Shown: piece by piece, positions 18,690 to 42,900 of the stretch
How the letters are laid out: each line of letters opens with the position of its first letter
Numbering within the stretch: the stretch's first letter is position 1
From: Isoetes taiwanensis
Taxonomy: Eukaryota > Streptophyta > Lycopodiopsida > Isoetales > Isoetaceae
Reading direction: 5' to 3'
Assembly (NCBI GenBank): GCA_021234155.1
Contig: JAJEKV010000058.1
Coordinates: 2,473,060-2,537,059 of the forward strand
DNA: 64,000 bases
Position numbers and translations under genes: made by a program
The notes under the pieces: generated by a model
What the model was told of the DNA's origin: nothing
Database searches by the model: none
What the model saw: the letters and a program-made list of their open reading frames with translations, nothing else

Positions 18690-19470
18690 TGATGGTCCCC
18701 GAAAGTATACGACGCCCCGCCATATACTCTAAGGGAAATCCCCCATCCAGCATCAACTGCTATATGGGCCCTCCGTCTGCCCTGATCCTGGGATGGCCAG
18801 GACATGGGTAAGGAAACATAGAGGCGTCTTGCATGTCCATCTCTTATGGGCTCCTATAATAGTAAAAGCATACTAAAGTGCCACCACTAGGAACAATGTA
18901 ACATAAATAGCTACCACGAAGGGTAGCACATCCATATAACCATAGATACATCAATAATATATCGTAAAACATATGAGCTCCTACCCAGGCTCAGACTCGT
19001 AGAAGAAAAAGTAGACTGACAGCTAGGTCTTAAGATAGAGCAGACCGAGATATAACAGTGGCGGGGCTGGCTATAAACAATGGCTAGGGTTGACCATTCC
19101 ATCCGCTCCCCTGTACATACTTTGCAGATGGGCTAAATCAGGCTCTGGCGTGACTATAACCTGCTAGAGACGTAGTCTCATGGTATCACCCATTGGGACT
19201 ACTCCAAGTTGCATCCCCCCCCCCCCGATGAGGTGGGAAGGGTTGCATTTCCCCTTTCCGAGGAATAGTGGCTCCATGGGCGGCTAGAGGATTGTGGCGA
19301 CACACGTCCGTACCCGATTGAACTCCCCAAAATAAGAGCCAGGCCGACACTTGCAACTCTTGAGTCACGGCGACACCATTGACCCAGGAAGGGTCGGACC
19401 CATAACATTTAACAAAAAATTGAAGTAAAGCCTGTAACCGAAATTGTAGTATTTTCAAAATTTGAAGATA
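18690..19470. other. GC-rich island of unknown origin
   Basis: This stretch has a visibly higher GC content than the AT-rich DNA on its left and contains a C12 run at 19215-19226. Open frames on the minus strand (about 19458-19186) have no recognised motif. The sharp compositional change suggests an inserted sequence such as an LTR, but I could not find a partner copy in the window. Confidence 0.4.
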
Positions 19471-19708
19471 AAATCTTCATATCCACATGCAAAATTTACC
19501 GTCTTTTTCTAAAACTCAGTTATGTGCAAAGGTGTAAGGACTGATGAGGGAGGGATCCAGCACGTCATCATATTCATTTATGCAATCCTCATCACCTTCA
19601 CTTCTTTCATTGTCATTTGAGGAAGTGCTTGAGTTATCTTCCTTATCTCTATCAATAGATGGTGAAACATTGCCACCACCACTCCCTTCTTCATCCTCTT
19701 CCTCGTAA

Positions 19709-22081: not shown

Positions 22082-22097
22082 TCTATGTCTCCTGGAA

Positions 22098-25000
22098 ATT
22101 TTTTTTTTTTTTTTTTTTGAAGGTAAGAACTTTTTATATTGATCAGATTGGAAGAATTACAATACGAAGATTCCTCATGGATCAGATATAATTTAAGTGT
22201 ATAGGATCCCACATGGATCTGAGTTATATCTGCAGTTACAATACTCATGAGTCTCTCTCAGCTTCTTCTTCTATCTAACTAATACTACAGTATCAACATC
22301 TTCTCAGTTAAATAGAATACTACAGGAGTCAAATTCCCATTTTCCATAAACTGCACACAATCCTGAGTGCTCCAAAAAACCTCTTGCAGAATTAGAAATG
22401 AAGAGAAAAAAGACGAAGAGTAACCTGAACAATCTCCCGCACTGCTCATAGAAGCCAATATGCTTCAAACTATGATCAAATTCTGCAACTTTACTACCAA
22501 ATGTGAGATTAAAAGGAGATGCTGCATTGTCGGGATGCGCCAGTCAGCCTACCTGTAATAAGCTAGACACACAGCCCAGCCACCAAAACTCCCCTCTAAA
22601 GTTTGGTTTATAATGATATGGAAGCATCTTCCTGGACACAATTAGATCCCTAGCTCGGCAATCTCAAATAAGTCTTACATCCTGTTTTAAAACTGTAGAA
22701 TTATGATCCAGAACTTACTCTAGCTCCTTCCAAGAAAGCATGCGTCTCAAAAGCGCCTTATAAGTTTTGCTGGCTTTCTTATTGTCAACAGCCGTACTTA
22801 ATGCTTGCTTAGCATGCATGCATTCCTTGTCAAACCATTTTTGGTTCTGCCAGTTTACTCTATGCCTAGTAGTTCCAAAGACTTCAGTTGCCACTGCCAA
22901 TGTGTTTCCAACCAGAATCTGGTTATAACCAAATGCATCAGCTGGCTACTTTATCTGCTCGAGCCTGCTGGTTAAAGTATTCGCATATTTGGCTGCAATT
23001 TTGTAATTGAGTTTGACGTGCTGAGGCTTCAAAATCTGTTTTGGAGTTTGAGACTTAACTGCTTTAAAAGCCAGATTGAGAGGTGCATGGTTTGAAACTA
23101 GCGGCTTTTCAAGTATATGAAAGTCATGGAGCATTGTACAAGTGGGATTACCTAGCAGGAGATCGACAACAGAGTTGCCATTTGGCTATAAACATGTGTA
23201 ATTATGTGAATCTGGAAAAGTCTGTATGCCATTGAAAACAATCCACTTTAGTGCCTCACATAGCTGCAATACATGATTTACCATAGTATTGCTAATGTGA
23301 TCATTGAATGTCTGCTTCCAAGAGTGCTCTGAATCGGTATATCCTTGCAACCAGATTTCATTGCTATCATCACGGAATAAAGGAGCATACCTCAGTCCTA
23401 ATCTTGCATTGAAATCTCCTGCCACATAATTAAACTGATCCCTTAGATTGGTAGTTAAGAATGTCCCTGGTAAGATATAAGAAAGGGTCATGAGAATCCA
23501 GATCTGGCTAATCATATACTTTTGCAGGTTCAGGATCTAATGGGGCAAAATAAACATAAGCAACATAAAGAGGCTTTTGTCCACTAATGCGCAGCCACAA
23601 GTACTGTTTATAGGGGCAGGTATGCTCAATTTTCACTTCATCTGTGTGGGAGAAGCGAACATAGCAGGCTAAACCTCCCCAACCTCTATGACATGCTCCT
23701 TTCTTATTGTGTAGGGCAGCAATTTTTGTGAAGTCTTGGATGCCAACTAGTGGTTTCATGTCATATTCCCATGTTTCAAGAAAGACCAAGATATCATGCT
23801 GCTTGAATAGATCGATACTGGGCAGGAATTTGGATTCGCTTGCACCATGGATGATCCACACCAAGAGTCTGAGGTTGACAATGACTTTGCTTCCAAGAAT
23901 ATATGCATTTTTTCCATCAGCCTTATGCTTCTTGACTTCATCTAGTAACATTTTTCTATCTTTTTGTTGTTGGGGATTAGACCCTCGTTTAACCAGATGC
24001 TGTGTCCCTTGAGATTCCCTTTGTGTTGCATTGCACGGTTGCGCAATTCCAGGCTAAGGAATTTAACAATGACAGGTCTGTGTCTTTCCTCGATTTTCCT
24101 GCCAACCCTGGAGCAGGATTGGATCTTAGGTTCATGAAGAAAGATCTTATTCTTAAAAATATCATTGATAGTATCAGATAAATTTTCTCCTGCTACTTCT
24201 TCAATGCCCGATATTTTGATATTAGTTGCTCTTTGTTGCCTATCTTCCAACTCTAAGACTCTGTCCTGCCGTCCTGCCTTGTCGGAGAAGATTAGAAACC
24301 TTAGATTCAATCTGAGTAACAAAATCTTGAGGTTGCTTAGCATTAGAATTCTGGTCCAATTCAGCTTTGAGACAAATTATTTCTGTGGCATCATGTGCTC
24401 TTGCTATTTCTAGGGTTTGGTTTTGTGCTTGCAACTGCCGATTTGCCTCCTGGAGTTCATTCTTTTGTTCCACCAGATCCAGCACTAGGCTTTTTATCTC
24501 AGTTATTTCCTGCATCAGCATCGGCATCGGCATCTTCATCTGATTATGGAGCAAATCGAAATCATCCTGGGGTTCTCCTTTGCTTGGTGTTTCGGAAGTT
24601 TTCCTTCTCCCCCCCATGGGAGAGCCTGCTACGAAATCTATTACGCGACCTGTTGGCGCCCTAAAATGCGACTTAATCCTTATCAATACCTGTTGTGGTA
24701 GCAATTATTGTTGCAGCATCTTGATAAGCAGTTTTTGCAAATATCTCCTTTACAGCGGACTGGAATTCCACAAACCCATGTGTCACAACGGTTGTGTGAA
24801 GAGGAATAGATACTGCAAGATCATCCTCATTTGTAGTGAAGTCATGGTGGGAGAAGTTGTGGAGAATCTCGCAGTCTTCTGATTGTGCTGCAGTTCTTGT
24901 TTGTCTACTTGAAGCAGGAGAAAGTGTGAATGGTCTGTTCCGAAAAACCTGTTGCAGTGGAGCCTGTGTAGTTTCGGGGGATGGAACAAAAGGTGGTGGA

Positions 25001-25290
25001 AGATTGCTACGTACAGCTGATGAGGCATTGAAAGGAGGGGGCAGCCTACTTCCTATTGGACTTGGAGAGGATTGGAAAGGTGGTGGTAGTCTACTAGTTG
25101 CTAGACTCAGAGTGTCTTCGAGGGGCGACAAGGATCTTGTCGAGGTAGGAGTCGGAGAAGCATTTGTGTCAAGAGGAAACCCATTACGTATTCCATCTAA
25201 ACTAAAGGAACTAGAGGCAACCAAAGGTGGTGGAAGTTTGTTCACGACGTGGTTAATTATCTTTAACAACTGCAAAACATTAGGAACATG
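22098..25290 (-). mobile_element. L1-type LINE with ORF1 and endonuclease, no RT
   Basis: Read on the minus strand, the element starts near 25290 and ends in a poly(A) tail, seen on the plus strand as T20 or so at 22099-22119. In order: a proline-rich segment with four LPPPF-like motifs (25275-24673); a coiled coil (24704-24240, LQAQNQTLEIARAHDATE); an RRM-like L1 ORF1 core (24343-23942, with LELEDRQQRATNIKISGIEE); an endonuclease in pieces with ILVFLETW (23951-23508), VAGDFNARLG (23515-23186) and SNHAPLNLAF (23134-22946); then a linker (22900-22715). The usual SDH catalytic motif reads SNH. Frames are broken between the pieces. Reverse transcriptase is missing, so this is an internally deleted copy. 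Confidence 0.7.
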
Positions 25291-25589
25291 TAATTAACTC
25301 ACTTGACTATTTTTCATTTGCTATTCGAGAACACAAAAAGCTATTCCGAAATATACTAGTCAAGCCTGTCTGGACGAGTCATATTCCATTTCACATAGAA
25401 AAAGAGAAAGGACCATGGCACCTTTAAAAGGGAAATTTGAGTACCTCAGTTGCGTATTCCGGTTTCACAGCTTTAGTCGCCAGACCGAACCCCTTCTATT
25501 CTAATCGCAGAATCGCATAGAGATAATCATGGACAGGTAAGCGTGTGAAGTACAGTGTAAAACTTTTTGCATTACTAGATCCTAATTTT

Positions 25590-25941
25590 TATTCCGAAAT
25601 ACACATTTGCCTCTCCGTGATCGGCAAAAGTGTATTCCAGAATATAATCTTGCCTACAGTCTTAGGGCAAAGTGTATTCTGGAATACACTTTCGCCTTTT
25701 GTCCTAACGCAAAGTGTATTTCGGAATACACATTGCCTTAGGATAAAAGGCCAAAAGTGCCTAAAGACAAAAAACAAAGTGTATTCCGGATAAAAGGCAA
25801 AAATATAGTCTGGAATAAACTTTGCCTAAAGACAAAATATAAAATGTATTCTAGAATACACTTTGCCTTAAGACAACGGGCAATGTGTATTTCAGAATAC
25901 CATTTGCCTTAAGGCACATCGCAGAAGTGTATTTTGGAATA
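25590..25941. repeat. Array of palindromes at 42-bp spacing (intron 1)
   Basis: Nine imperfect palindromes with core TATTCCGGAATA start at 25590, 25633, 25675, 25717, 25782, 25806, 25847, 25888 and 25930. Most steps are 41-43 bp; the 65+24 pair covers about two periods. Full-length cores extend to GTGTATTCCGGAATACAC. Between cores lies a second palindrome of the type TTTGCC-TTAAG-GGCAAA (for example around 25862-25882). The unit is thus two alternating palindromes. The array lies within intron 1 of the ParB/methyltransferase gene. Further single cores occur at about 26106 and 27440. Confidence 0.85.
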
Positions 25942-27827
25942 AGAATTTGGCAAAGTAAAGAGATTTTAGACTTAAGTGTGTCTTTTTTTCATCTTGGACG
26001 AATCCTCTTTAGTTAGATTAGCACACTCAAAAACTTGCTTGTGAGACTTCCTTCCGTTCATTTTTTATTTTTTTTGCCTGTCTGACACACAATTTAGCAA
26101 TTTTTATTCTGGAATACGTCCTCTCCTTTTTACTTAACAGACTTGTAGCAATAGTTTTTTTTACAGACAAGAGGGAAGCAAGAAGGCTCCAAAGAAAGTG
26201 CTGAATATTGTCAAATGGCCTCACCTCCATGGTAAGTTGCAGAACATTGATGAGCCTGCAATTTACGAAAACTTCCAGACATGCTTTCCTGCAAGTTCGC
26301 AAGAGCTCTGGGCAGAAGCGCTATGATAATAGCGAGTTTGTGAACCTGGAAACAATTAAGGAAGTATCAGAAGTTGCCGGGCAAGAAGGGCAGGTGGGGA
26401 GGCTTTTTTTCAAGACCTCACAGGATTTTATTGTGATTGACATTGCCTTCTTTAGAAATTTGCAACCGAGAATTTGTACAAGTATATATCACTCTACAGG
26501 AACAAACAAAGCTTAGCTTCCATCATTCGGAAGGCTTGTTCCATTCACAGCAAGGACTTCACTATTAGCGAGTCCGACATGAGGAAGAAGACAAAGAGTC
26601 TCCTATTGCTAGTACTTCTGGCCAGGACAAGGAGAAAGAAAGTTCAGAGGAAACGGAAGAGCAGCAACCCAAAAAACTTAGCAGGCCAAGAGCCACAATC
26701 GCTGCTAAAGAACCAAAGGAAAGAAAAGTACAACAACTGGAAGTGGTGGAAGTCCACGAGGAAAGCATAAAGAAAAGAAAGGGAAAAAGAAAAGCACCCT
26801 GGGTGGCAATTAAGGAGAAAAAAGTGGATAAAACTTCCAAAAGAATGGGGGCAATAAACAGGAAAAAGTTTATGCAGGAGGTAATATATCTTCCAGTCAC
26901 TTGCATGAGGCTGCTCCCTAAAAATGAAGCTGGTGAGAGGCCACTTTAGGTTTGGAGGATCTACGCAAACCACTTGAGGAACCAGAAGGACAGAATAAGG
27001 AGCAACCCCAATGCTCATGTGGCCCCAATAGTTGTCATTGTTGACAGGGAGCAATGCATAGACCCCCAAGACTACGATAGAGAAAATGCAGATACCTACA
27101 CTCATTATGTCTTGGGAGGTAACCACAGCTTTAAGCCAAGGAGGCAACTTTATAAAGAAAAAAAGAACCTGAGGTACTTTTTCGTCCTATGTGCTGTTTA
27201 CTGTGATCTTACCGACAAAGAAGCCAAATCGTTGCCAACACTCATAATGCTGACAAGGAGTACAAATTAAAAATGAGCTTCGTCGATAAGATCAAGCATA
27301 TGCACAGAGAATATGTGATCTTCAAGGAAAAGTACGGTGAGAACCTAAAGAAACCAACAAAATCTTTAGAGCTTAAGGTTTCGTGCGGCACGACATCTAG
27401 TTCCAGTTAGCTTTCGGAGATAAGGTAGACATGATCTGTATTCCGGAATAAGAATTTTTGCTAAAGTTTTCTTGTTCGGCTTTATCAAGTTTTGTGTTTA
27501 AGAAAGCAAGCAAATCTAACCACAGTTCACGTGTGCAGATATGGGAACTCCAAAACGAAATATTTACCATGTTCGAGCACGGGGAGTTGAAGAGCAAAGG
27601 CAAAGAGCCAGCCAAGAAGAAAATCTCTGATGTACCAAAGAAAGAAATGACAATAACTATCTGGAGGGAAATGCAGGGCTTTGCCGACACCGGTTTGTTA
27701 GAACGGCTGCTCCAGAAGGCTGTCGACAAGGAGTTTACTCTTGAAGAATATTCCAAGGAATTGCACAAGTAAGTTTTTCTTTAATATAAATGACTAGACA
27801 ACTCTTAGTTTTTTAGAAACAGCGGTG

Positions 27828-27881
27828 TATTCTAGAATATAGTTTTGCCTTCTTGAGGAGGCAAATGTGTATTTTGGAATA
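27828..27881. repeat. Left part of second 42-bp palindrome array
   Basis: Two cores, TATTCTAGAATA at 27828 and TATTTTGGAATA at 27870, are exactly 42 bp apart and follow exon 5 of the ParB/methyltransferase gene. The second core runs directly into an AATA repeat, the 3' tail of a minus-strand LINE. The array continues at 36386 beyond the nested insertions. Confidence 0.8.
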
Positions 27882-28262
27882 AATAAATAAATAAATTTAT
27901 TAATCATGCTTCTTGAGACCCTAATGGGCCATGAAGCAACAAATACAATGAATTCATATTACTTCCAATAGAAGTTGTCTATGATTATCAACTTCCACCA
28001 AGAAATTCCCTAATCTGCTAGGATCAATTTGCAAAAGCGAAAAAAAGTTTGTTTTGTCAATATGGTGTTTCTCCCGAATTCCTTGATAGCAGCTACATAT
28101 AAGAAAAACATGAGATTCATCCTCAACCTCACCTGAGTTGCATAGTGTGCACAGTCGATTTTCCCTGGGAATATTATGCCAACGTCCAATTTCAATCTTC
28201 AAGTTGTGAGAGCTAGTTCTGTATTTTGCTATAACTCTTCTCGCCCTATACTTTGTTTGCAA
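27882..28262 (-). mobile_element. 5'-truncated LINE tail with (TTTA)n end
   Basis: On the minus strand, residues KYRTSSHNLKIEIGRW, IPRENRLCTLCNSGEVEDES and HVFLICSCY give the C-terminal Cys/His motif of a LINE ORF2 (28262-27954). About 50 bp of 3' UTR and a TTTA-rich tail end at 27882. Its 3' end resembles that of the plus-strand LINE ending near 36380 (CATGNCC, AGGTCCTAAG-like, GATTAAT), so the two belong to the same family. The encoded tails differ at many residues, so they are separate insertions placed head to head. Confidence 0.65.
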
Positions 28263-28291
28263 GCAACTATAGGACCATCTTAATTGGAAGC

Positions 28292-28914
28292 TGATACAAC
28301 TACCTCAGAAACCTAAGCTAGAAAACAAGTAAATGGAATAACTCTTCAATCGTTAGGAGGAATTACAACCACCCAACCGGGTTCAGGCTTCCAACAGGAA
28401 TTCGTTATCCTGCTTTAATCAACTCAGACCTCAACACTTAAGATCCTAAGATCACTATCAGGGTTCAACTAAGATCACGCAGGCTGGAATGCCTTCTTAC
28501 AGAAGCAACCATTATATTTATAAGGAAGTATCAAGCCTTTAGTCCGGATCCCCTTTTCTCCAAGAATATCTCTTCAAATAGGTAGATAATTATAGCCTGA
28601 GGAGTTTCGGCTGCAAATAACGAAGATACTACCGTTTTTAGAATCGGATCGACTGTCCTTGTGGAATCAAAATAAAGGTTGCGTTTGTTACAGTCGTTTG
28701 GCTCAAAAAGGCTCGCGGCCGTTATCAGCCACATATTTTAAAAACTAACCCTTGTCTCACGATTATAGTCTTGCTTTAATATATTAACGAACCTTTAACA
28801 TATAAGGTTCATAAGCTAACTTCTATCATTTTGTCCATTAACCTTTAACCCTTTTATCCGACAACCGAGTTGAGCCTGAACCACTCCCCCTAGCTGGCGT
28901 TTTAAGCCGTAACA
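28292..28914 (-). repeat. 3' LTR of Gypsy element
   Basis: This 623-bp direct repeat of 32901-33523 differs at roughly a dozen sites (about 98% identical by eye). On the element's own strand it begins TGTTACGGC and ends GTATCA, so it has the TG...CA ends of LTRs. It is flanked on the left by GAAGC (28287-28291), the target duplication. Confidence 0.92.
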
Positions 28915-28930
28915 ATCCTTCCCTTCCCGA
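28915..28930 (-). promoter_or_regulatory. Polypurine tract
   Basis: On the element's strand the sequence GGGAAGGGAAGGAT lies directly before the 3' LTR. This is the expected primer for plus-strand DNA synthesis and fixes the orientation of the Gypsy element. Confidence 0.85.
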
Positions 28931-29262
28931 GACTAAACGTCTGCGTTAGTCTTGGGGAAAAATTGCTCATCCTAATTCCGTTAAGGATATTTAACTCCAT
29001 AGCCTCAGTTCCTTTAGAGGTTATAAATTTCACATTTCAATTCAGTTAGAAATGACCTCAATTCCATTAGAGGATTTTTGTTCCCTTTTCAGTTAGGGTT
29101 GGCCTCAGTTCTCTTAGAGGACTTAGTCTCTTTACAGTCGTTAGTAAAGAATTCAGCAATTCTATGCATTTCCATATCTAGATATTTTATCAATAAAACA
29201 ATTGCAAATATAATAATATGGAATTCCAAATATAATGTTTGAAGGTCTGTGAACTTTGCCTA
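28931..29262 (-). other. Gypsy 3' untranslated region with short repeats
   Basis: The stretch between the end of the integrase frame and the polypurine tract has no open frame. It contains three related blocks, CCTCAGTTCCTTTAGAGG at 29003 with variants at about 29056 and 29103, spaced roughly 50 bp. They may be decayed tandem repeats; no function can be assigned. Confidence 0.55.
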
Positions 29263-29751
29263 TTATTCTTGCAAAGTTCTTTCATACTCTTCCACCAAGG
29301 AATTGTATTCTTTTAATTGAGTCTTAGAATACCATACCGCATCGGTGGACGGATGAAATTTAAATTTCACGAGATACCTTCGATAAGAGGAACTTCTAGT
29401 CTCCTTATCTTGATGTGTTAATATTTTCTCCGGTTCCAGCACCTCTTCATCATCTTTAATGTTGGGAGGTTCCGATTGCTCCATTCTCTGCAAAATCTCA
29501 GGAGAAATTTCTCTTCCCTTATAGGGTTTCAGTATTCCCACATTAAAAACTGGGTGCAAGTTAGTCCATTTCCCATATAAATGTAAACGATAAGCATTCT
29601 CACCTACTTTGTCGTCAACTTGGAATGGACCATAATACCTAGGGGCCAGTTTTACATACCGATTACCCATCTTCCGTAGACGCTTCTTTGGAAGATGAAT
29701 CCAAACCCATTGATCTTTTTTTGTACTCAACCCTTTTTCGTTTCTTTGCAA
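29263..29751 (-). CDS. Integrase C-terminus with chromodomain (Gypsy)
   Basis: This minus-strand frame overlaps the end of the main pol frame and continues it after a shift. It contains DQWVWIHLPKKRLRKMGNRY and KLAPRYYGPFQV, the GPY/F module of Gypsy integrases, then LHPVFNVGILKPY. A chromodomain-like end follows: EPEKILTHQ, YLVKFKFHPSTDAVW and LKEYNSLVEEY (normally YLVKWKG...ATWE...L). In chromoviruses this tail directs integration to chromatin. The shift relative to the upstream frame is an inactivating mutation unless it is a sequencing error. Confidence 0.85.
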   Translation of the reverse strand: MQRNEKGLSTKKDQWVWIHLPKKRLRKMGNRYVKLAPRYYGPFQVDDKVGENAYRLHLYGKWTNLHPVFNVGILKPYKGREISPEILQRMEQSEPPNIKDDEEVLEPEKILTHQDKETRSSSYRRYLVKFKFHPSTDAVWYSKTQLKEYNSLVEEYERTLQE

Positions 29752-31894
29752 GTTTGGAAGCCATCAATTCTTGACTTTTCTGGATTCGAGCTTTTACCTC
29801 GCGCAAGATATCTGCAAAGTCTATAGTGGCTTCATCGGAAGCAGGTACTTCTCCACCTAGTTTTGCAATTGGAGATTCCAAAGAATATCTGTACACCACT
29901 TCAAAAGGAGTTCTTTGGGTAACTGAGTGTACCGTGTTATTATAGGCAAACTCCAAGAGATAAAGATACTCTTCCCACTGGCTTTTCCTTTCAGCAACAT
30001 AAGATCTCAGCATATCCTCAATAACTCGATTTACTACTTCAGTCTGACCATCTGTTTGGGGATGATATGCAGTGGAATACTTTAGAGTCGTGCCTAAGTT
30101 TTTCATAAGTCCACTCCAAAATTTGCTACAGAATAGGGGATCCCTATTTGTTATGATTGCATCTGGCATTCCATGGACCTTAAATATTTCCTTTAAGAAA
30201 ATCTTGCTTGCTTGCAGAGCAGTCATGCTAGATTTACAAGGAATAAAATGAGCCTGTTTAGACAACCTGTCTACTACTGTCCAAATTTGATCATTCTTGT
30301 GAACAATCTTTGGTAACCCTTGTATAAAATCCATGGTGATATGTTTCCATGGTTTTTCTGGAATAGGCAAAGGCTGTACTAATCCAGCAGGCTTACCGGT
30401 AGAAGCTTTTACTTGTTGACAAATAAGACATGCTTTGATATATTTTCTTACATCTCTTTCAAGCTTTGGCCAAAAGGAACGTCTTTTAACGGTTGCCAAA
30501 GTAGCTTGAATTCCTCTATGACCAGAATATGGAGGTTCATGACATTCCTGTACAACCTTCAACCTGTATGCTTGTGTAACACAAGTACGATTTCGGTAGA
30601 GTAATAACCCATTATGAATTCTGTACTCTGCCAAAGGATCTCTTCCATCCTTTTGTACCTGTGCATATGGAGTAGCAAAGGAGGGATCGCTCACATATTC
30701 TTTTTTCATTGGTTCCAAATCGACAAATTCTGCTACGGATATAGCTTGAAGATTTATCCGGCTTAATGCATGTGCAACCTGGTTCTCCTTCCCAGGCTTG
30801 TATTCAAGTTGCATCCCTTCAAAATCTTTTATAGTGTCAATGAGCTTTAATTGCCGCGCATTGATAATATCCTGTGTTTGTATATGTTTCAAGCTTTGCT
30901 GATCAAAGCGAGCTACAAACTTAGATCCCATAAGATAATGCCTCCACTTCTTAAGTGCATGAACTAAGGCAATCAATTCTTTTTCATAAGTGCTATACTT
31001 TTGTTCTAATGGTTTAAGCATTCGGCTGACATAAGCTAATGGATGCCCATCTTGCATCAGTACTGCTCCAATAGCATTTCCACTTGCATCCGAACAAACT
31101 GTAAAAGGCTTATTCCAATCAGGTAGCACTAATACCGGTTCAGTTGCCATGCTCTCTTTTAGAATTCGGAAAGCTTCCTCGGCTTCCGGATTCCAAACAA
31201 ATGGGGTATCTTTCTTTAAAAACCTGCTAAGAGGAAGGGTTATTTTTGCAAAATCTTTCACCAATCTGCGATAGTAACTGCATAACTGTACAAAAGATCG
31301 TAAGTCCTTAAGGTTTTCAGGCCGTGGCCAATCAATAATAACCCTAATCTTTTCGGGATCCATCCGTATGCCTTCTTTGGATATGATATGACCTAAATAT
31401 CTAACTTCTTGCATAAAGAACCTGCTTTTGGACTCATTAACAAACAACTTATTTTGCCTCAGAAGGTCAAAAACCTGTTGAAGGTGCTGCTTATGCTCCT
31501 CAATAGTTCTACTATATATAAGTATATCATCAAAGAAGACTACAACACTTTTTCCTAGTACAGGAGCTAAAACTCTCCCCATAAGATGGCAGAAAGTTGC
31601 CGGAGCATTGGTTAGACCAAAAGGCATTACACGAAACTCATAGTGACCAAAAGTTGTTCTGAATGCCGTTTTACCAATGTCTTCTTCCTTTATTCGGATT
31701 TGATGATATCCTGATTTCAAATCAATTTTGCTAAATATGCAAGCACCTCGTAATTCATCAAATAGGTCATCTGCTCTGGGCACTGGGAATTTATCCTTAA
31801 TAGTCAACTTATTAAGAGCTCTATAATCCACACACATTCTATATCCCTTATCTTTCTTTTTTGAGAATAATAAAAGTGCCAAAAAGGGGAACAA
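29663..31894 (-). CDS. Gypsy pol: reverse transcriptase, RNase H, integrase core
   Basis: The 743-codon open frame has, in order, reverse transcriptase (CVDYRALNKLTIKDKFPVPR, MPFGLTNAPATF, catalytic VFFDDILIYS, RYLGHIISKEGI), RNase H (VCSDASGNAIGAVL, YEKELIALVHAL) and integrase (HHCC residues in HEPPYSGHRG and CLICQQVK; MDFIQGLP; HPQTDGQTEVVNR). Two catalytic positions are changed: RNase H ADALSR reads AHALSR (Asp to His), and integrase SDRDP reads TNRDP (the catalytic Asp to Asn). The frame opens after a stop, so its upstream boundary is not a real start: in the intact element pol would be made as part of a polyprotein. The remaining length is normal for the family. Confidence 0.92.
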   Translation of the reverse strand: MFPFLALLLFSKKKDKGYRMCVDYRALNKLTIKDKFPVPRADDLFDELRGACIFSKIDLKSGYHQIRIKEEDIGKTAFRTTFGHYEFRVMPFGLTNAPATFCHLMGRVLAPVLGKSVVVFFDDILIYSRTIEEHKQHLQQVFDLLRQNKLFVNESKSRFFMQEVRYLGHIISKEGIRMDPEKIRVIIDWPRPENLKDLRSFVQLCSYYRRLVKDFAKITLPLSRFLKKDTPFVWNPEAEEAFRILKESMATEPVLVLPDWNKPFTVCSDASGNAIGAVLMQDGHPLAYVSRMLKPLEQKYSTYEKELIALVHALKKWRHYLMGSKFVARFDQQSLKHIQTQDIINARQLKLIDTIKDFEGMQLEYKPGKENQVAHALSRINLQAISVAEFVDLEPMKKEYVSDPSFATPYAQVQKDGRDPLAEYRIHNGLLLYRNRTCVTQAYRLKVVQECHEPPYSGHRGIQATLATVKRRSFWPKLERDVRKYIKACLICQQVKASTGKPAGLVQPLPIPEKPWKHITMDFIQGLPKIVHKNDQIWTVVDRLSKQAHFIPCKSSMTALQASKIFLKEIFKVHGMPDAIITNRDPLFCSKFWSGLMKNLGTTLKYSTAYHPQTDGQTEVVNRVIEDMLRSYVAERKSQWEEYLYLLEFAYNNTVHSVTQRTPFEVVYRYSLESPIAKLGGEVPASDEATIDFADILREVKARIQKSQELMASKLAKKRKRVEYKKRSMGLDSSSKEASTEDG

Positions 31895-31945
31895 ATTGGG
31901 CGTATTAGTTGTCGTTCTAACATCTCGCTATCTATTTCTCAAGCT

Positions 31946-32194
31946 CTAATTTCTCAAAATGGTCGACTCTATAAGGCTCTCGTTTGGAGGTTTAGCGTTT
32001 TCTTGCAACTGTATAGCATGATCCTCTGGACGATGAGGAGGTAGATCTAAAGTTTCCTCATCTTTGAAGAGATCATCGAATTGTCTCAGAAAACTGTACA
32101 ACTCGAGAGGCACCTGTGATGGAGGGTCAGAGTTTCTCAAGTAAATAAAGTATGATTCAGCTTCGCCCTGTATTAACTTCTTAGTTTCAGAGTA
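31946..32194 (-). pseudogene. Linker before reverse transcriptase (Gypsy)
   Basis: On the minus strand, YSETKKLIQGEAESYF, LRQFDDLFKDEETLDLPP and RPEDHAIQL form the usual segment between protease and reverse transcriptase. The native reading starts at the TACTCTGA site (32194-32187). The minus-strand frame above this point is only antisense of the inverted gag piece. A stop and a frame change near 31946-31894 separate it from the main pol frame. Confidence 0.7.
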
Positions 32195-32884
32195 AAGGGC
32201 CAAAGACTGGATGTTATAATTGTGGGGGTCCACATTACCAATCCAACTGCCCGAAGAATACAGCCCCGGCAGATAAAAAAGACGAAGAAAGTGCAGTTTA
32301 AAGAGCCGCCGCCTAAGGAAAGGCAAGTTGCTCAATCCCACCATGTGGAAGATAGGCCTAAAACTTCCAGGGAAGGTGAGGAAAGAAATAAAGGAAAGCT
32401 TGCAGCCATTGAACAGGAAAAAGGGAGATTGCAAATTGCGTACCTAAAGAATTTGTCAGAAGACGATACAGAGTCTTCAGAAGCATGGCTGTTTAAAATG
32501 AAAGGTTCAGTAAAAGGTCAAGATGTGACTGTTTTACTTGATGATGGTTCCACACATGATTTTATCTCGCAGGACTTAGTGTACAAATTAGGATTACCTA
32601 TCTGTGATTTGCAAACAAAAATCACAGTGGTGCAGGGTTTGAAAGGTCCTAGGAACCAGTGTGATAAATATGTGGTAGCTCCCATCCAAATAGGGCAGTA
32701 TTTTGAAGAAAGAGTTTTGATTATGGCCCCTCTAGGAACTATGGATGTGATATTAGGAATTGAATGGCGAGAACAGTTTGATGCCCGACCTAATTACAGG
32801 GAAAAGACAGTAACTATAATGGTTGAAGGGCAACCCTTGAAGCTGTGTACAGATTCCACATCTCAAGCTGAACCCCTACTGACA
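32195..32884 (+). pseudogene. Inverted gag zinc knuckle and protease module (Gypsy)
   Basis: This 690-bp segment runs opposite to the rest of the element. On the plus strand 32212-32250 encodes a CCHC-type knuckle, CYNCGGPHYQSNC. After a frame change, 32250-32880 encodes a basic region and an aspartic protease (VTVLLDDGSTHDFISQDL, VAPIQIG, VILGIEWREQFD). Here the catalytic triplet reads DDG rather than the usual DSG/DTG. The segment is bounded by TCAGAGTA (32187-32194) and TACTCTGA (32885-32892), an inverted 8-mer. Turned round, knuckle and protease would precede the reverse transcriptase linker in the normal order. The rest of gag is absent. Confidence 0.8.
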
Positions 32885-32886
32885 TA

Positions 32887-32897
32887 CTCTGATACCA
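32887..32897 (-). promoter_or_regulatory. Primer binding site (initiator tRNA-Met type)
   Basis: The element strand reads TGGTATCAGAG three bases inside the 5' LTR. This matches the 3' end of plant initiator tRNA-Met as used by many plant LTR retrotransposons. Only 11 bases match, because the inversion breakpoint follows directly. Confidence 0.85.
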
Positions 32898-32900
32898 AAT

Positions 32901-33523
32901 TGATACAACTACCTCAGAAACTTAAGCTAGAAAACAAGTAAATGGAATAACTCTCCAATCGTTAGGAGGAATTACAACCACCCAACCGGGTTCAGGCTTC
33001 CAACAGGAATTCGTTATCCTGCTTTAATCAACTCAGACCTCAACACTTAAGATTCTAAGATCACTATCAGGGTTCAACTAAGATCACGCAGGCTGGAATG
33101 CCTTCTTACAGAAGCAACCATTATATTTATAAGGAAGTATCAAGCCTTTAGTCCGGATCCCCTTTTCTCCACGAATATCTCTTCAAATAGGTAGATAATT
33201 ATAGCCTGAGGAGTTTTGGCTGCAAATAGCGAAGATACTACCGTTTTTAGAATCGGATCGACTGTCCTTGTGGAATCAAAATAAAGGCTGCGTTTGTTAC
33301 AGTCGTTTGGCTCAAAAAGGCTCGCGGCTGTTATCAGCCACATATTTTAAAAACTAACCCTTGTCTCACGATTATAGTCTTGCTTTAATATATTAACGAA
33401 CCTTTAACATGTAAGGTTCATAAGCTAACTTCTATCATTTTATCCATTAACCTTTAACCCTTTTATCCGACAACCGAGTTGAGCCTGAACCGCTCCCCCT
33501 AGCCGGCGTTTTAAGCCGTAACA
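32901..33523 (-). repeat. 5' LTR of Gypsy element
   Basis: This is the 623-bp partner of 28292-28914, with TG...CA ends on the element strand and the primer binding site on its inner side. The right flank GAAGC (33524-33528) repeats the left flank of the other LTR. Confidence 0.92.
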
Positions 33524-34745
33524 GAAGCATCTTTTCAAAACTTTTGGGCAGTCTGCTGGAACATAAGCATAGTAGTTGGACCGAGTGGAATGGAAAAAAA
33601 GCTAGCTGTCAAGCGGGCTTTAGGCAGCAGCATAACACTCTAGATCATGTTTTGGTATTGCGAACATTGATTGAGAAGGCCAAAGATCCCCGCAAAGCAT
33701 TATATTTAGCTTTCATAGATTTTTCCAAGGCCTTTGATAAGGTCCCTAGGAAAGATCTTTGTTCGAGAATGTACCCCATCAGTTGAGGGGGACTGTAGCA
33801 AAACTATATGAAGAAGTAATCATAAAGCTTTCCTTAGATCTCAACGCAGGTACAAAGAACACTATTGGTGTTCGCCAGGGGTGTCCCCTATCCCTCACAC
33901 TTTTTGATCTTTATATCGATGGATTGGAGGATTGATTGCAGCAGAGAAGCATATCTGGAACCAGGTTAGGGGATTTAGTCATTCAATTACTCCTATACGT
34001 AGATGACGTGGTACTGCTAGCGGATTCCCCAGACATTTTACAAGTACACACCTGAATCATTTAGCCTCTTTTTGTGATGCAAAACACATGACTGTCAATT
34101 TGAATAAGTCAAAAGTTATGATTTTTGGCACAGTGAAGAGGCCTACTTTTTATTTTAAAGGCAACACACTAGATCTGGTTGATCAATATAAGTATTTGGG
34201 GCTGGAAATCGGATTGTTTGAAAAAGCGCGTGTCTGATGGTAAATCTTCCTTGTATAATGTGTTGGATAAGTGCCATAGAGCTTCTTTGACAGACTCGGA
34301 CATGAAAAAGACTCTCTTCAAGACACTAGTTCAAACTGTCACTCTTTATGGAGCTCCAATTTGGGGGCCATATATCTCACTTCAGCAATGGGCGCAGGTA
34401 GAAACAATTTCGAAAGCTTTCATCCACGAAGAGCTAGACGTAAAATGTCAGACGCCTTATGTCCTATTGCTCGCTGAAACAGGCTTAATCCCACTAGAGG
34501 TGGAAGCATTGTTTCAAACCATAAATTTTATTAATAGGTTGCAAAAAATAGCAATGCAGGCGTCTTCAAATTCTGGTTGGTATTCTAAGGTGCAGGAGTG
34601 GGCAAAGAAGTGGGGCATAACTAAAGACAACTGGCCAACTTCTGCTATTGGTGCACGAGACCTTATGCAATTGCTAGTAATTTCAAGATTGCGGCGTAAA
34701 CAAGGGTCTCCGAAGACTGCTTATATATCAGAGATGAATCAAATG

Positions 34746-35941
34746 CAGGGCTATGCTTTCTTGTTATACTCTGGTTCTTTGTTGCTTATGGGAAGGCTTG
34801 GGTATGTGCGTAGAGAGGTTGCCCTCGGTTTCTAGACATGGAAGAAGCTTTGTCTCACAATGTCCAGGTGTTACTGTTTAGGATTCCTTGTGGATGGGCA
34901 GGACAAGGGCATTGCAGTTTCAGTATTCGAGAGTAGTTGCTTCACTTAGTCATGTTTCAGAATACAATTCTGGTCGCTTTGGCTGCGAGTATTTGGGGCA
35001 GCAGGAAGAGTGCCCTAGATTTATTGAGCCGGCATCTCGGGTGCTTCAATGTTGCAGCATCTATCTAGTAGCCAGGATAATTTGGAATGTAGTGGCTTCT
35101 GGATTGAGCAGTTTACTTTATGTGAAACATTTCGGGGGAGGAGGAAAAGGTGCATTTAGTAGACTGCAGGAAGCAAGAAGGCCTTAGTCTGGAGCATGAG
35201 TTGGAGAAGTGGCAGGCTTGAGTGTCTGAATTTGCAATATCTTTAAGTTTAGCTTTCTTCAGCGGATTCTTGAGCACAATATGCGGATTTAGTGGGAGCT
35301 CTGCTATTTTATGTCGCCCTCTCCTATCCCAGCTAGGAGGTGGTGTGGGATTTAGAGAAAGCTTAGTGAAATGAGGTCAGGAACAAGCAGGATATCTATT
35401 AGCCACTTGATACGGGAGGATTAAGTGGTGTTACAGCTGGTAAGAGCATTAGCTGGTAAGAGCATTAAGGGAGACGAAAACTCAAGCAAGTGAGTGGATA
35501 AGTGCAAGAGATGTGGACCACCCATTTATTTGGGGAGGGCCTTAGAGGCATATGGGTTGGAGAAGACGGTGAGGGTTGTTGTGCCCTCCCTCTAGTATCC
35601 TGATGCATATGTGATTGCAGGTTCTAGTTAACGCGTGGAAGGAAGCTTTCTTTGTACTTGCCTCATCTACTTGTATCTCCGGGGTGGAACATTAGGTGGT
35701 GTCGTCTTCAGTCTGTCACATGATATCTTGCTTCCAATGATTTTATGGAGCTTTGCTATTTTCTGTTCGCGCATCTGGGTTCATAGTGAGGGATTGCTAT
35801 ATTTGATCCATTAAGGGATCTGAGCATGTGTGCTGACATGTGTAGGTTATCTGGCTATCACAGAGCCTTGAATAAATGTATTTATTACATATTATTAATA
35901 AATATAAAAATATCTTGCCTTCAAAAAAGAAAAAAAAAAAA
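34746..35941 (+). mobile_element. Poly(A)-tailed retro-insertion inside the LINE
   Basis: A 1196-bp insert is flanked by the perfect 10-bp duplication GAATCAAATG (34736-34745 and 35942-35951). It ends in ATAAATATAAAAATATCTTG followed by CCTTCA and an A-rich tail (about 35925-35941), very like the tail of the minus-strand LINE ending at 22099. It is therefore probably a 5'-truncated member of that L1-like family consisting mostly of 3' UTR. A small tandem duplication, AGCTGGTAAGAGCATTA twice, lies at about 35437-35470. No long open frame is present. Confidence 0.8.
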
Positions 35942-36385
35942 GAATCAAATGGTTATCTACTCGGATCAAAATTATTTGAAGGCGAATATATCAAAGTTCT
36001 TAAAGCACGTGATTGCAAGGTATAGAACTAGCTCGCATAAGCTACATGTTGAAACAGGAAGATGGTATGGCATTCCCAGAGTGGATAGAATCTGTATTCT
36101 ATGTAGTTGCAACCAGGTTGAAGATGAGAACCATGTTTTTATTAGTTATCTTGCCTATGAAGAAATCAGAGTCAAGCATGGTATCAATTATACGAGCTTT
36201 CAGATCCTCTTGGATATGGATCCAAAGACATTAGGTTATTTCATCAAAGATGTTGAATCACAACGCTCTTTCCTGTTAAAACTATGAATCGTGTAAATTT
36301 TTTCGCTCCATGACCTTCAAGGTCCTAAGTGAGCGTGATTAATTCGTTATTATTATTTATTATTTTAACTACTATTTTAAAATTG

Positions 36386-36568
36386 TATTCCAGAATATAC
36401 TCCCACTCACACAATAAAACAAATCTGTATTCCGAAATACACATATGTCTTCTTCAAAAGGCAAATGTGTATTCCAGAATACGCTCTTACTTTCTTTGGA
36501 AAGCAATTGTGTATTCCGGAACAAACAAACTTTGCTTTACTAGGAAAGCAAGCGTGTATTCCAGAATA
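36386..36568. repeat. Right part of second 42-bp palindrome array
   Basis: Five cores start at 36386, 36428, 36470, 36512 and 36557 (steps 42, 42, 42, 45). They read TATTCCAGAATA, TATTCCGAAATA, TATTCCAGAATA, TATTCCGGAACA and TATTCCAGAATA. They continue the array of 27828-27881 on the far side of the insertions and stop about 60 bp before exon 6 of the ParB/methyltransferase gene. Isolated cores recur at about 37260 and 37354 in the next intron. Confidence 0.88.
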
Positions 36569-37249
36569 CACTTTTACATACACATTGTTCTCTTGTTTTC
36601 TAATATAGTGTTTTCTTATTTTCTATCAGCCAAAAGAACGTCATAACATGTCAAATATGTTTGATGGAGCAGTTGAACGTGGAAACTTGGGACAGATGCA
36701 AGGAGCTTTACCCTGTTGCCACGTCTGAATTGAGGACTGGGTAAGTTTACTTTTGAACCTCTCTCTTTATCTACTTTGTGTTAACAGTTGTAGTATTTCT
36801 TCTTCTTCCAGAGTGAGAAGAAAAATAAAGATCTTCCAGAGGGCTTCATGCACTTGATTAGAACTGCACGGGAAGACAGGTCATTCGTGGAAAGGAGGAG
36901 CATCGATGCAGAACCATCCGACTATGAGAGATTTTGCATGTTTGATCAAAACAACCTGTTTTTGATCATACATGGCGATTGCACGAAACTGGTTGGGACG
37001 GTAAAGCCAGAAGACTTCATATTGGTCATAGCAGATCTACCTTACGGCTTTAAGCTAAAAGACAGCCGCTACGACGACCAGCCCTTCAAAAATTCGGAGT
37101 TCAATGCTTTTGTCGACGACATCAAGCAAATCACAACGGCCAAGCACTAGCATCTCATTGTGTTTCATTCTAGCGTGCAGGCCAAGTGGAATCCACGTTT
37201 AAAAACCACTTCGAATTCCCTGTTCAGGAAGGATATGAAAACCTGGTCT

Positions 37250-38900
37250 GGTAAGTCCTTATTTCGGGATACAGTTGTTTTTCACTTTGACTTCTCTTTC
37301 TAGTCTGTGTTTGGACTTGTTTTTGTGTTGACCTCTTTGTTTATGTTTCTTATTCCAGAATAGGAATTCTCTGGTCCTAGTTTTCATATTGTTTCCTTAT
37401 TTTGTTTTTGTTGCCAACTGCACTTCCAATATCAACCTTTTTAATTTATGATTATCCGGTATGGTCAAAAAAGTTTTTGGAATTTTTCTAAGATTGATTT
37501 GCTAAGGTTTTCAAAGTTTTGGCCATCAGAAAAAAAGTCCTGACACTCCAAAAATCGGGAAATATTTTGGGCTTTGGGTTTTTGCAATAGAAATGCCTAA
37601 AATGGGCGGGAGAGGCAGTGCCGGATTTGGCATGCATGCCTGCCACGATTGCTCAAGAGCTCTGCATCTTATGAATCGGGCAAATGAATGTCTTCTCCGC
37701 AGCATGTATGCCATTGTTGCCATTGTTGCTCATAATCTGTTCGTCTCTATTTTCTACCAGGAGGTGGATCGTTTACAAAGATGGGTGCATGAAATTAGGC
37801 TGCAGGTGAGAGCATCTAGGGCTTCTTCTGTGAAGGATTAGCTATCTTTCTTTAGTTTCAATTTTGTTGTATGCCGGGGTTTTTCCAATACATATCCATG
37901 ATGGTAAACATTCCTGGAACAATTTATATTTTTGCTTTTGCCATGCTTTGTGCAGAACTAATGGCATCAATTTATGTGTAGCAATTTATGACCGCGAAGT
38001 TACATGTCCAAAGGTTACTTGGTATATTTAACATGTATGCCATGTATATGGTTGTCTAAGATGGGATTCGTATGAAGAGAATATATTCGTTTTGCTATTC
38101 AATGGTCCCATGGACATTGAGTCATTTGCATTAGCCAAGCAAAGTCAAAGAAATATGTGTGCCAAATTGGATGTTGCAATAATTATGGCACTTTACTCTT
38201 TTATTTTCGTTTTTTGACATTGATTTCTATTTGGACCATTGTAGGGGCATATATGCAGGGATCTTCTATGATTATGACAAGATGGTATGAAATGTTAGTG
38301 CAAAAGCAGTTGCTTAGATATTTGATTGTTGTTTAGGTTGTTGCCTTTGAGTTCTGCACTGATGTAAGTTATGTCTTCCAGTAAACCTGTATAAAGTTCT
38401 CTTCAAGAGTGGACATCTAATATGCTGATAGCAGTTTACTTCTTGGTTCCTTTGTAGGTGAATATCTGCAAGCACAATCCTGTCATCTCTATCAAGGCTT
38501 TGCATTGGATTTATGTCCCATCTGATCCTAGATTTATCATCCAATGGCTCTCATGTTACTAATCATTTCATAGGCCTTAGTAGATAAAGAAAAAATGAAT
38601 ACTTCAGGAGCATGTAAATGGGGTTTTATGGGCTCAAGTCCTGAGAACTTGAGAAGCAATGTGAGGCAATAGGGTCTCAAAGTTAACACACTATTTCATA
38701 CCTCCTATGCATGATCATGAAGATAGCAAGCCCTTATCATGAAGATAACATGCATACATTTTTCAGAGCTCTTGAATGTGAGATTGGGCACTCTTTTTGC
38801 TGCATCAGGCTTGCCTTATATTCTTGCAGAGCTGATGGATTATTAATTGTGATTGGCCATCATTATCAAAATTTATCTTTAATAGAAGCTTCACCCCAAA
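37250..38900. other. Flank of the methyltransferase element; no clear gene
   Basis: After the last recognised exon and two more palindrome cores the element fades out. At 37593-37840 an open plus-strand frame (MHACHDCSRALHLMNRANEC, then EVDRLQRWVHEIRLQ after a possible acceptor TTCTACCAG and before a donor CAG|GTGAGA) looks exon-like. I do not recognise it and cannot join it to other exons. Confidence 0.35.
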
Positions 38901-39979: not shown

Positions 39980-42900
39980 GGTAATCGATACTAGAGAAAC
40001 CATTGTGCTTTTATATTCATTGGTAACATGAATGGCATCCTATTGTCACATTGACTAAGATGATCATTTGGATCAATCTTGAAGATTGCATGGAATATGT
40101 TATTCCTATGGATTCTTCTTTTGCAACTCATGGTAAGAGCACTTTGCACAAAATTTGCTTGAAGTTGCTAAAGTTTACAGATGTCTATCCGAAGTTTTTC
40201 CACTATTGTTTTCTTAGATGATTGTATATTAGGCGATCTCGCACTTTGCCACGCAGTTAATGTAGTTAAAGATTTGAAAGCTTGTGGTGATACCTTTACT
40301 TCTAGGTATCTTCCTCGTGGATGCCGATTTACATTTGAATCTTTTAAATGGCTATTCTTAATGCCCGTGGATGCATGATATTAATGCAAGTGTAAGTGTA
40401 AATTGAGTTTGCGTAAGCCATATTTGAGTTTGCATGAAGATAAGCCATTTAACAACCCTTCATGAACATGTAGGCCGATTGGCGGATATATAGGCTCTAT
40501 AATGAGATGTAGGTTGCACATATTTGCAAACTTTTGTTTGCAAGATGCTTCACTTTGAGGCCGATCTTACCACCGCCAATCGCCATCAATGTAAGAGGTA
40601 AAAAAGTTTTGCGCATTTAAGTACTTTGTGTGCAAAAATGCTATAGAGAAAGTGTTGCTTTGTTTATGGCTTGCTTGGTAGTGATTTATATGTAACATTC
40701 CCATGTGCTTCAAACTAAACTAGAGGCCCGCCTCAACACCTACTAGATATTTAGAACTGATACAATCAGATATTTAAAATCAACCAGAAGTTGTAGCTAA
40801 TTTGTTGAGCCGAAGTTTCAATTCCTTTTGTAGTATTTCTTAGAGCACAATTTGGCCCAAAATTGTCAGTTTAACCATTGTCTTCGTTAACTAATAGTTT
40901 CTTCCTTGCATTTGCAGATTTTCTTTCAACGATGTTCTCGCACAAGTATGTAGGCCTGCAGCATAAGAGATAGATCCAACAATTTAAGCATGCGTTTATT
41001 TGTCGAGTATGTGGGCTTGAAGCATAAGTGATAGATGATAGATCCGACAATTGAAGCATACGTTTATTTGCTTCTTTGCTTTTGTTCATGTTGCACTTTC
41101 ATCTAACTAAATACTATTAGATTGATGCCGCATCAAGGGTGATTTGCATGCTTCAAGGCTATGCATGTTATGGCACAAGGGAACGCCTTAAGGATTGCAC
41201 TTGCTTCTCCATTAAATCTTCTTTTGTATTGAAACTTTATGTTTGGAAGGTTCAATGCACTAGCTTTCCTATAGGAATTACGATCATTATATGTTGACTT
41301 AGGTGAATCATGAGTTTATATATATTTCATTTCATAGGCACAATTTTAAAGCTAGCTTTGCCAAATGCATAGACAATAAAAAATGTGTCTTTTGGACAAC
41401 AAAATAAGTCTATGATAAGATTCACTCATAGATTTTCGTTGTAGCCCTTCACTTTACATCCCAAGACCAGTATGCAAGACTTGGCAGGAATAACTTAGGT
41501 TCGAGCAATGAAGTTGACGAAGGAATATTATTTGCAATTAAAACTTAGGTTCAAGCAATGAAGTTGACGATGAAGTTGATAAGTCACATGATTATCGATG
41601 ATTGGTCGTGAGGTCAATTAAGATTATCGTTCATATATAGCGAATAGAATCGACAAAATGGCATGGAATTGAAATTACCACTTATTTATAGTTAATATAG
41701 CTAATAGAAATAATGAAATGCCATTTTCTTTATGGAATAGAAAGTAGCACTTATCAATAACTACGAGCTACATGCATTAAGTCACAAACAAGAGGGATAA
41801 ATTGTTAATTTCATATGTCTATATCAAAACCTTCGCCAAATAATTCAAAGAGAATTCCAAACTGTTTTTCTTCCTAACCGGGAAATCCCAAATTAAAGGT
41901 TGATATGGTTATTTCCAGTGTAGTAGTGAAAAAGAAAGCACCGACTTGAAATTTAGAGTTCCCTACACATGGTTCAACCTTTCTCATAGACGCTTCCAAA
42001 CATGCAGGCACCCCTTACTACATATCAAAATTTGAGATGCTTGAATGTTATATTACTAGAGAGGAGAGTTATTAGTCATTACATTTCTTTTTTTTTTATT
42101 AAACATGTCTTCTGTTACATCTAGATACATGTGCATGCCCAATATGGATTGATAAATATATATCAACATGACCAACCAAACCAACAACCAAACAGCCACC
42201 CTTCAAATTGTAGTAAAGTTCACCATAACTAGTTTTTATATAGGTCCAAAACTAACATCAACTACCATAGTGGAGGACATAGGTTGCTCAGCAAGGTGGA
42301 GTATCTCCAGGCTTTCAAATTTAAAGCAGATAGAACAATTGAAATTCTTTTGATCAGCTCCTCGCCATTCTGCTGTTATCAAAAACCATCTATAAACTAT
42401 TTTCTCAGGAAGCCCAGACTAACTAGAAAAGTCTACATATTGAGAAAGACGTGATGATTTTGCTGAGCAGATGCAATGAAGCAGGGGCTGGAGCAGATCT
42501 TAGATGTGATGCATTTGAGATGCTTTTGGCCTGAGCAAAGTAAGATTACTTCTACAAATCCAATGCAAACAAGGCCGGATGAAGAGCTGCTAACAGGAAT
42601 TTTTCTTCCAAGAATAGCTCTTCCAAAAATAGCTGCATGCATTGAATTCCCTAATATTTATTAGTGGCAGACATGCCCATCGAAAAATATATTTTCTTGT
42701 GGAAACCCTTCCGGGCTTCAAGAAAATTTGTAAGGGTTTCGCCATTGAAGGCCAAAAGGGTTTCCATTTCTGGGAAGTCTAATCCAAATTGGGCGGAGAT
42801 AGTTTGGGCGATAATGATCTCCTTTTTAATTAAAACTTTTTTTTCAAACCAAAATTTTAGTAAAAAACATTTGCCAACGTAATCTAACATATAGACCTTG

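Follow-up and report, generated by a model that had tools for sequence, protein, structure and literature searches.

A high-copy DNA transposon family of Isoetes taiwanensis with a ParB-like methylase gene and phased palindrome arrays in its introns

We analyzed a stretch of 64,000 nucleotides from Isoetes taiwanensis (assembly GCA_021234155.1, contig JAJEKV010000058.1, positions 2,473,060 to 2,537,059 of the forward strand), referred to below as the window. It holds a decayed copy of a high-copy DNA transposon, whose similarity to other copies spans positions 19404-42343. Members of this family carry a gene in which a ParB-like domain precedes a DNA methylase, arrays of short palindromes in the introns of that gene, and a divergent gene for a DUF7869 protein. 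The best explanation in our view, to which we give about an even chance, is a DNA transposon with a putative DUF7869 transposase and a ParB-methylase of bacterial origin, the latter binding the palindromes of the element and methylating the element against silencing.

The ParB-like and methylase stretches form one gene

The genome from which the window derives (1,658,258,908 bases) was searched for further copies. The methylase exon gave 2381 first-look candidates, and all 150 that were scored matched at an E value of 3.8e-60 or better, with 67-94% identity once the window itself was set aside. The matched stretch, which often covered only residues 2-123 of 146, was free of stops in 127 of the 150. 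Thirty loci with the methylase exon were then fetched (3.4 kb each, the window copy among them); a match to the ParB-like exon was present in 23 of them and a match to exon 6 in 26. Every searched exon stretch was complete and stop-free in three loci (L020, L023, and L036) and nearly so in a fourth (L029). Splicing of L036 at four GT-AG junctions produced a single frame of 671 residues that runs from the ParB-like domain to the stop. The ParB-like and methylase stretches are therefore one gene, with six exons. This bears out the initial annotation, made from the window alone, which had placed the two domains in one protein: the L036 frame is continuous, and the domains did not turn up in separate, unrelated genes.

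The methyltransferase proposed by that annotation was found by profile search: the spliced L036 protein matched PF01555 (N6_N4_Mtase) with an E value of 5.3e-19. The best solved structure was CcrM (6pbd; E 5.5e-12, residues 352-597), and the protein without its ParB part matched phrog_67 (DNA methyltransferase) with an E value of 4.5e-27. Motif IV (DLPYGF, exon 5) lies ahead of motif I (DAFSGSGTT, exon 6) in L020, L029, and L036, both motifs being intact there. From this motif order, IV before I, together with the PF01555 and CcrM matches, the enzyme is classified as a beta-class methylase, and the CcrM match favors adenine as the target base. CcrM-type beta-class amino-methyltransferases likewise have motif IV before motif I, as well as NHYQKPQ; they differ in having DPPY where the element has DLPY. 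In the open copy L023, motif I reads DAFSSSGTT, and the methylase of this copy may thus be dead. A search of 5.8 billion proteins returned 103 significant matches among 5451 candidates at an E value of 1e-3 (best, 3.2e-8). All 103 contained PF01555, and four (P0002, P0083, P0100, and P0102) also contained the ParB family PF02195. No close relative was found in this protein set, in a search whose tool has length and word limits and in a set from which kin records of the plant's own genome may be absent.

For the ParB-like domain, the natural exon matched the NCBIfam family TIGR03764 (ICE ParB) over residues 8-142, with an E value of 1.6e-4 and 21.5 bits. TIGR03764 was the sole family listed for each of five members at E values up to 1. 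All 12 plasmid matches to this exon were annotated as ParB family proteins, at E values of 0.09-6, none of them significant alone; three phage records also matched, all unannotated. On these profile comparisons, the identity of the domain as ParB appears weaker than that of the methylase.

Both stretches seem to have been kept by selection as the family spread. The median ratio of nonsynonymous to synonymous substitution rates (dN/dS) was 0.028 for part of exon 2 (4 copies, 6 of 6 pairs), 0.083 for exon 5 (15 copies, 43 of 105 pairs usable), and 0.066 for exon 6 (6 copies, 14 of 15 pairs), with pairs dropped when dS was up to 0.02 or saturated; the copies had been picked for open frames, which favors low values, and the median dS was 1.3-1.4, near saturation, in two of the exons.

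Phased palindromes occupy the introns and the promoter region

The palindrome TGTATTCYRGAATACA occurs 6021 times genome-wide, compared to 2 times for a reversed control. Within the window, 15 sites lie at most two mismatches from TGTATTCNNGAATACA, all of them within 25588-36570, compared to a random expectation of 0.15 (mean of 20 dinucleotide-Markov sequences of 64 kb each). The window palindromes are thus not due to chance. A site scan, which assigns no strand, placed an array at 25588..25943 and a further palindrome at 26103..26118 in intron 1, one at 27437..27452 in intron 2, and a group at 27826..27883 in intron 3, to the left of nested insertions. To the right of these insertions, intron 3 continues with palindromes at 36384..36570, spaced in steps of 42, 42, 42, and 45. 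Two degenerate palindromes with four mismatches each lie in intron 5 (37258..37364), where the copies E37 and E39 have better sites at the same place.

This arrangement recurs in other copies. In four copies, the 26.4 kb within the element contained 35 exact sites and the 22.6 kb beyond it contained none, copy E40 being excluded from the count. In three copies, with 12 (E37), 13 (E39), and 19 (E41) sites, none of the 44 sites with up to two mismatches fell into aligned coding stretches; the coordinates place them in four introns (1, 2, 3, and 5) and, in E37 and E41, also ahead of exon 1. The initial annotation had described palindrome arrays in the introns, and this description stands, with the promoter region to be added. 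Four loci were fetched by the genome-wide palindrome pattern; two of them, overlapping each other, carried parts of exons 2-6, and the other two, also overlapping, carried an 18-residue match to exon 4. In the sequence examined, the palindrome arrays are specific to the element.

In 30 sources with 229 sites, neighboring sites were separated by at most 130 bp in 157 cases, and by 41 or 42 bp in 107 of these. Such steps correspond to four helical turns, and the sites therefore lie on one face of the DNA. The center of the palindrome is CG in 106 of the 229 sites, TG or CA in 112, and TA in 7, a pattern that would be expected if methylated cytosine in the central CpG of silenced copies is lost by deamination.

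The family has terminal inverted repeats and a divergent DUF7869 gene

The right end of the element was seen in 23 of the 30 copies of the first loci (27 rows, 4 of which were second readings). It consists of a near-constant hairpin, AAACGGGAGTG..CACTCCCGTTT, followed by AATTTGCAAYMNTGTT and then by unrelated flanking sequence. Four copies allowed the left end, AACAAGATTGCGTATTAAACGGGAG, to be read. A DNA search for this end yielded 1404 candidates, of which 40 were scored; the end was present in all 30 loci taken from this search, two of these loci being among the four copies already read. Within each of four copies, the two ends form imperfect 25-bp terminal inverted repeats (TIRs) that agree at 20, 22, 22, and 23 of 25 bases. 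A 4-bp target site duplication (TSD) was present in six of six copies with both flanks read (AAAC, ATAA, GGTT, CTCA, TTGG, and AAAT), a count that leaves out E37 and E39, which have lost the left end, and E41, which has lost the right end. Five copies measured 7.7, 8.2, 8.3, 8.4, and 11.8 kb. By its TIRs and fixed 4-bp TSDs, the family is a TIR DNA transposon. The terminal repeats and target duplications that the initial annotation suggested looking for at copy ends were thus found, and its proposal of a mobile element is supported by them and by the thousands of first-look candidates.

A GC-rich hairpin lies 16 nt inside the right terminus (L039, reverse complement, 7048-7075), and a similar one is present in the 23 copies read there; the inner portion of the terminal repeat supplies one arm and its inverted neighbor the other. 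A Helitron-like ending, which had been considered because of this hairpin, was rejected on the basis of the matching TIR at the true left terminus. Position 1955 of E39 was ruled out as a left end, this copy being truncated. In L015 (3115-3366), a stretch that matches the DUF7869 side starts about 15 bases past the right end of another copy, which suggests that one element was inserted into another.

The family does not qualify as DIRS, as its ends are TIRs with TSDs and no DIRS-type Pfam match was obtained: seven pieces of L039 and L041 had no Pfam match to reverse transcriptase or tyrosine recombinase. Gypsy-type frames recognized by eye in L041 lie past the point where the element breaks off. 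Visual inspection of the L039 and L041 frames revealed no viral hallmark gene, nor was one seen in the seven pieces scanned; no further search for a viral origin was made.

The gene divergent from the ParB-methylase gene matched PF25273 (DUF7869) with an E value of 1.4e-44 in L039. Its protein gave 9902 candidates in the same genome, and the 150 that were scored were all above the cut-off; among 14 control genomes, none contained a match. When the 150 best-scored places of each gene were compared, 21 DUF7869/methylase pairs lay at most 20 kb apart, compared to 0.54 expected under a uniform distribution. DUF7869 was upstream in 21 of 21 pairs and divergent in 19; left-end pairs were upstream and in the same orientation in 11 of 11 cases. 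The Pfam entry PF25273 names no function. We presume that DUF7869 resembles RNase H-like enzymes, and from this resemblance, its place, and its abundance, we infer that the protein is a putative transposase. As first-look candidates were about fourfold more numerous for DUF7869 than for the methylase exon (9902 versus 2381), other lineages of DUF7869 transposons without the ParB-methylase may exist. The initial annotation had proposed prokaryotic descent for the whole element. This is unsupported, since only the ParB-methylase gene looks bacterial and the other gene is DUF7869.

A possible self-marking function and its alternatives

Bacterial ParB proteins bind palindromic sites. By analogy, the ParB-methylase would bind the palindromes of its own element, perhaps clamping or spreading in the manner of ParB, and the bound protein would methylate adenine (or N4-cytosine) within the element. 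Such methylation might mark the promoter and gene body as self and as active, counteracting host silencing, with the palindrome arrays supplying family-specific targeting, as the VANC motifs do in Arabidopsis VANDAL. In its most specific form, a self-recognition epigenetic system in which a bacterially derived ParB-methylase loads on phased palindromes and writes N6-methyladenine (6mA) or N4-methylcytosine (4mC) on its own copies, the proposal is tentative, and we rate it somewhat below an even chance. In eukaryotes having AMT1, 6mA is associated with transcription, according to the available part of PMC12695648.

Several observations weigh against this reading. The ParB fold expected by the initial annotation is supported weakly, through TIGR03764, and its 21.5 bits are far under the curated cut-off of 143.75. 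Pfam's ParB itself was absent from the Pfam matches, and the match of this domain to DUF6551 was weak (E 0.011-0.012). When the ParB exon was compared by hhalign with the N termini of four bacterial ParB-methylases, no match resulted (Prob 0.1), and a PDB search with the ParB alignment returned nothing relevant, only Na/K-ATPase beta chains (E 0.7-1). The palindromes could be bound by the DUF7869 protein or by the N-terminal region, and DUF7869 is without proven activity. Moreover, a bacterial ParB-methylase is reported to have non-specific nicking activity (PMC5512222, available part), which would fit a different role.

An alternative that we regard as fairly unlikely is that the palindromes are sites of the DUF7869 transposase or of a host factor, functioning as enhancers or in transposition, comparable to the En/Spm subterminal repeats to which TnpA binds, and that the ParB-methylase acts independently of any target sequence. 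Binding of transposases to repeated internal sites is common, and the intron 1 arrays start directly behind exon 1, adjoining the region between the two divergent genes. However, in the three mapped copies, the sites occupy introns of the ParB-methylase gene or the stretch immediately preceding it, away from the termini, unlike subterminal transposase sites, and palindromic sites suit ParB-type dimers.

Somewhat less probable still is a part in the chemistry of transposition, in which hemimethylation after replication or nicking by ParB would time excision. Dam controls IS10 and IS50 in a comparable way, and the non-specific DNA nicking reported for the ParB of a bacterial ParB-methylase (PMC5512222, available part) would be in line with such a role. 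Nevertheless, it leaves the intronic arrays unexplained, and no palindromes were present at the termini in the three mapped copies. We consider it improbable that the arrays act in RNA, as intron hairpins governing how the ParB-methylase messenger is spliced or kept in the nucleus: most palindromes do lie in introns of one gene and perfect palindromes can fold, but some lie upstream of exon 1 (E37 and E41), and the 41-42-bp phasing fits the DNA helix. Chance proximity to transposons, whether of a host gene or of unrelated pieces resembling ParB and a methylase, might be thought from the decayed and insertion-filled window copy alone but is contradicted by the terminal repeats, the TSDs, the 2381 candidates, the fixed gene order, and the single frame, and we hold it to be very improbable.

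If the proposed self-marking by the ParB-methylase is correct, the plant genome would contain thousands of self-marked loci and a writer of adenine methylation outside the MT-A70 family. A DNA transposon would have acquired a ParB-methylase of bacterial type, and DNA sites matching this protein would have evolved in the transposon's own introns, a second and independent solution to the problem solved by VANC in Arabidopsis. Such a system, if shown, would be new. It would also offer a natural pairing of protein and site with which a base mark could be written at chosen positions. Eukaryotic 6mA is disputed (PMC12695648, available part), and the element would give a land plant a concrete, testable source of 6mA or 4mC that is genuine. 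With a family of this size (2381 first-look candidates for the methylase exon and 9902 for DUF7869), the host genome could plausibly be affected.

Relation to known systems

VANDAL elements, of the MuDR type, have a MuDR transposase and TSDs of about 9 bp. The element described here has 4-bp TSDs and DUF7869 as its divergent gene; it would at most work like VANDAL and is no member of it. The likeness lies in a further gene beside the transposase and in arrays of short motifs that are family-specific, occupy introns and intergenic parts, and vary in number by copy (PMC5735166, available part). VANC21 binds dense YAGTATTAY arrays in the introns and intergenic parts of VANDAL21, where cytosine methylation is then lost, and the arrays grow and shrink between copies (same source). 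Unlike the palindromes of the present family, the YAGTATTAY motif is non-palindromic and arrayed in one orientation, and in the available part of PMC5735166, VANC is not called a ParB protein or a methylase.

Bacterial and phage ParB-methylases, such as Bce_0392 of Bacillus cereus (PMC5512222, available part) and P0002, P0083, P0100, and P0102, similarly have a ParB-like domain N-terminal to a PF01555-type methylase. The element gene differs from them in its six exons, in its extra N-terminal, helical, and C-terminal parts, and in its location inside a eukaryotic transposon. Neither the protein-set search nor hhalign detected significant similarity to them outside the methylase.

Sola2 transposons share 4-bp TSDs and short imperfect TIRs with the present family and include chimeric members with further proteins; unlike in Sola2, not all TSDs described here are rich in AT (GGTT, CTCA, and TTGG) (PMC3627910, available part). 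Element-encoded DNA-modifying enzymes are likewise found in DIRS elements with a Dam-like adenine methylase and in DNMT retrotransposons (PMC5890265), as well as in TET/JBP DNA transposons of fungi (PMC12730594). As far as the available parts of these sources go, all of them differ from the present family by element class or by enzyme; the word ParB has no occurrence in the text of PMC5890265. Elements with DNA-modifying enzymes, bacterial ParB-methylases, and Sola2 elements with 4-bp TSDs and further proteins are thus already known. We did not find their combination among the matches listed in our searches of the open-access literature; no plant ParB-methylase transposon was among these matches, and none of the papers in the library mentions DUF7869.

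The window copy and its surroundings

In the window, the left half of the transposon copy lies at 19404..25502, in blocks at about 19404-20107, 20954-21548, 21574-22102, and 24692-25502 (blastn against three other copies, 71-90% identity; no strand assigned). Within it, at 21323..22156 on the minus strand, lies what is left of the divergent DUF7869 gene (PF25273, E 9.5e-21; relative by tblastn at 21461-22099). Both terminal repeats were looked for, and neither the left nor the right one was found in the window.

The initial annotation had read in-order spliced exons on the plus strand, and these exons, their splice sites, and their order are as claimed: ATGGACAG at 25529, followed by gtaagc, then the long exon that contains the ParB-like stretch, the helical exon, the short exon with CxxC, and the methylase exon. 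Exon 1 occupies 25529..25536 and reads ATGGACAG followed by gtgagt in copy E39. The exon 2 remnant (26167 to about 27389) comprises the N-terminal region, a charged linker, and the ParB-like domain (26950-27389), a stretch that is open in other copies. The helical exon 3 (about 27539 to 27768) is 85% identical to the corresponding exon of copy L041. Exon 4, with its CxxC, lies at 36630..36740 (86% identity, 35 residues). Exon 5, the first half of the methylase with motif IV (DLPYGF), lies at 36812..37250, is 82% identical to residues 1-123 of the L041 exon, and terminates in ENLVW followed by gtaagt. The start of exon 6, the second half of the methylase, was detected at 42248..42343 (plus strand, as are the other exons; tblastn E 3e-8), and the remainder beyond 42343 was not found in the window. 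The interval that had been assigned to the element, 25529..37249, therefore holds real exons, yet most of 27.9-36.3 kb consists of nested insertions and the element is larger (19404-42343).

The window copy of the ParB-methylase gene is dead: TAG codons interrupt its frame at 26947 and 37148, and frame changes, at least five in number, lie near 26318, 26456, 26580, 27225, and 37176. Its decayed exons matched no Pfam model for ParB or a methylase; outside Pfam, they gave weak matches to TIGR03764 (ParB, E 0.0038) and phrog_67 (DNA methyltransferase, E 0.0013). They returned nothing significant from the PDB or from viral contigs, and none of 4168 and none of 19 candidates in the 5.8-billion protein set were significant. 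Against phages, the methylase exon likewise gave nothing significant (best E 0.3), the matches listed being mostly DNA methylases, and the sole match of the ParB exon was an unannotated record with a nonsignificant E value of 1.

The region from 27.9 to 36.3 kb is mostly foreign to the transposon, consisting of LINE-like pieces (long interspersed nuclear element) and a Ty3/gypsy element. The latter is a long terminal repeat (LTR) element inside intron 3 (28292..33523, minus strand), with LTRs at 28292-28914 and 32901-33523 that are 98% identical, pol domains, and GAAGC on both sides. A LINE-like insertion on the minus strand at 22103..24691 breaks the transposon copy; it appears as a gap in the alignment to other copies, and its LINE-type frames were recognized by eye only. 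Altogether, LINE-like fragments in both orientations lie in or beside the transposon copy at 22103-24691, 27890-28290, and 33524-36330. The piece at 33451-33786 is the sole one with profile support (RVT_1, E 4.7e-7), the rest having been recognized by eye. Elsewhere in the window, three reading frames with pentatricopeptide (PPR) repeats (PF13041/PF01535), which point to a land plant as host, were observed at 52099-53721, 8224-9480, and 50393-50923, the third being weak.

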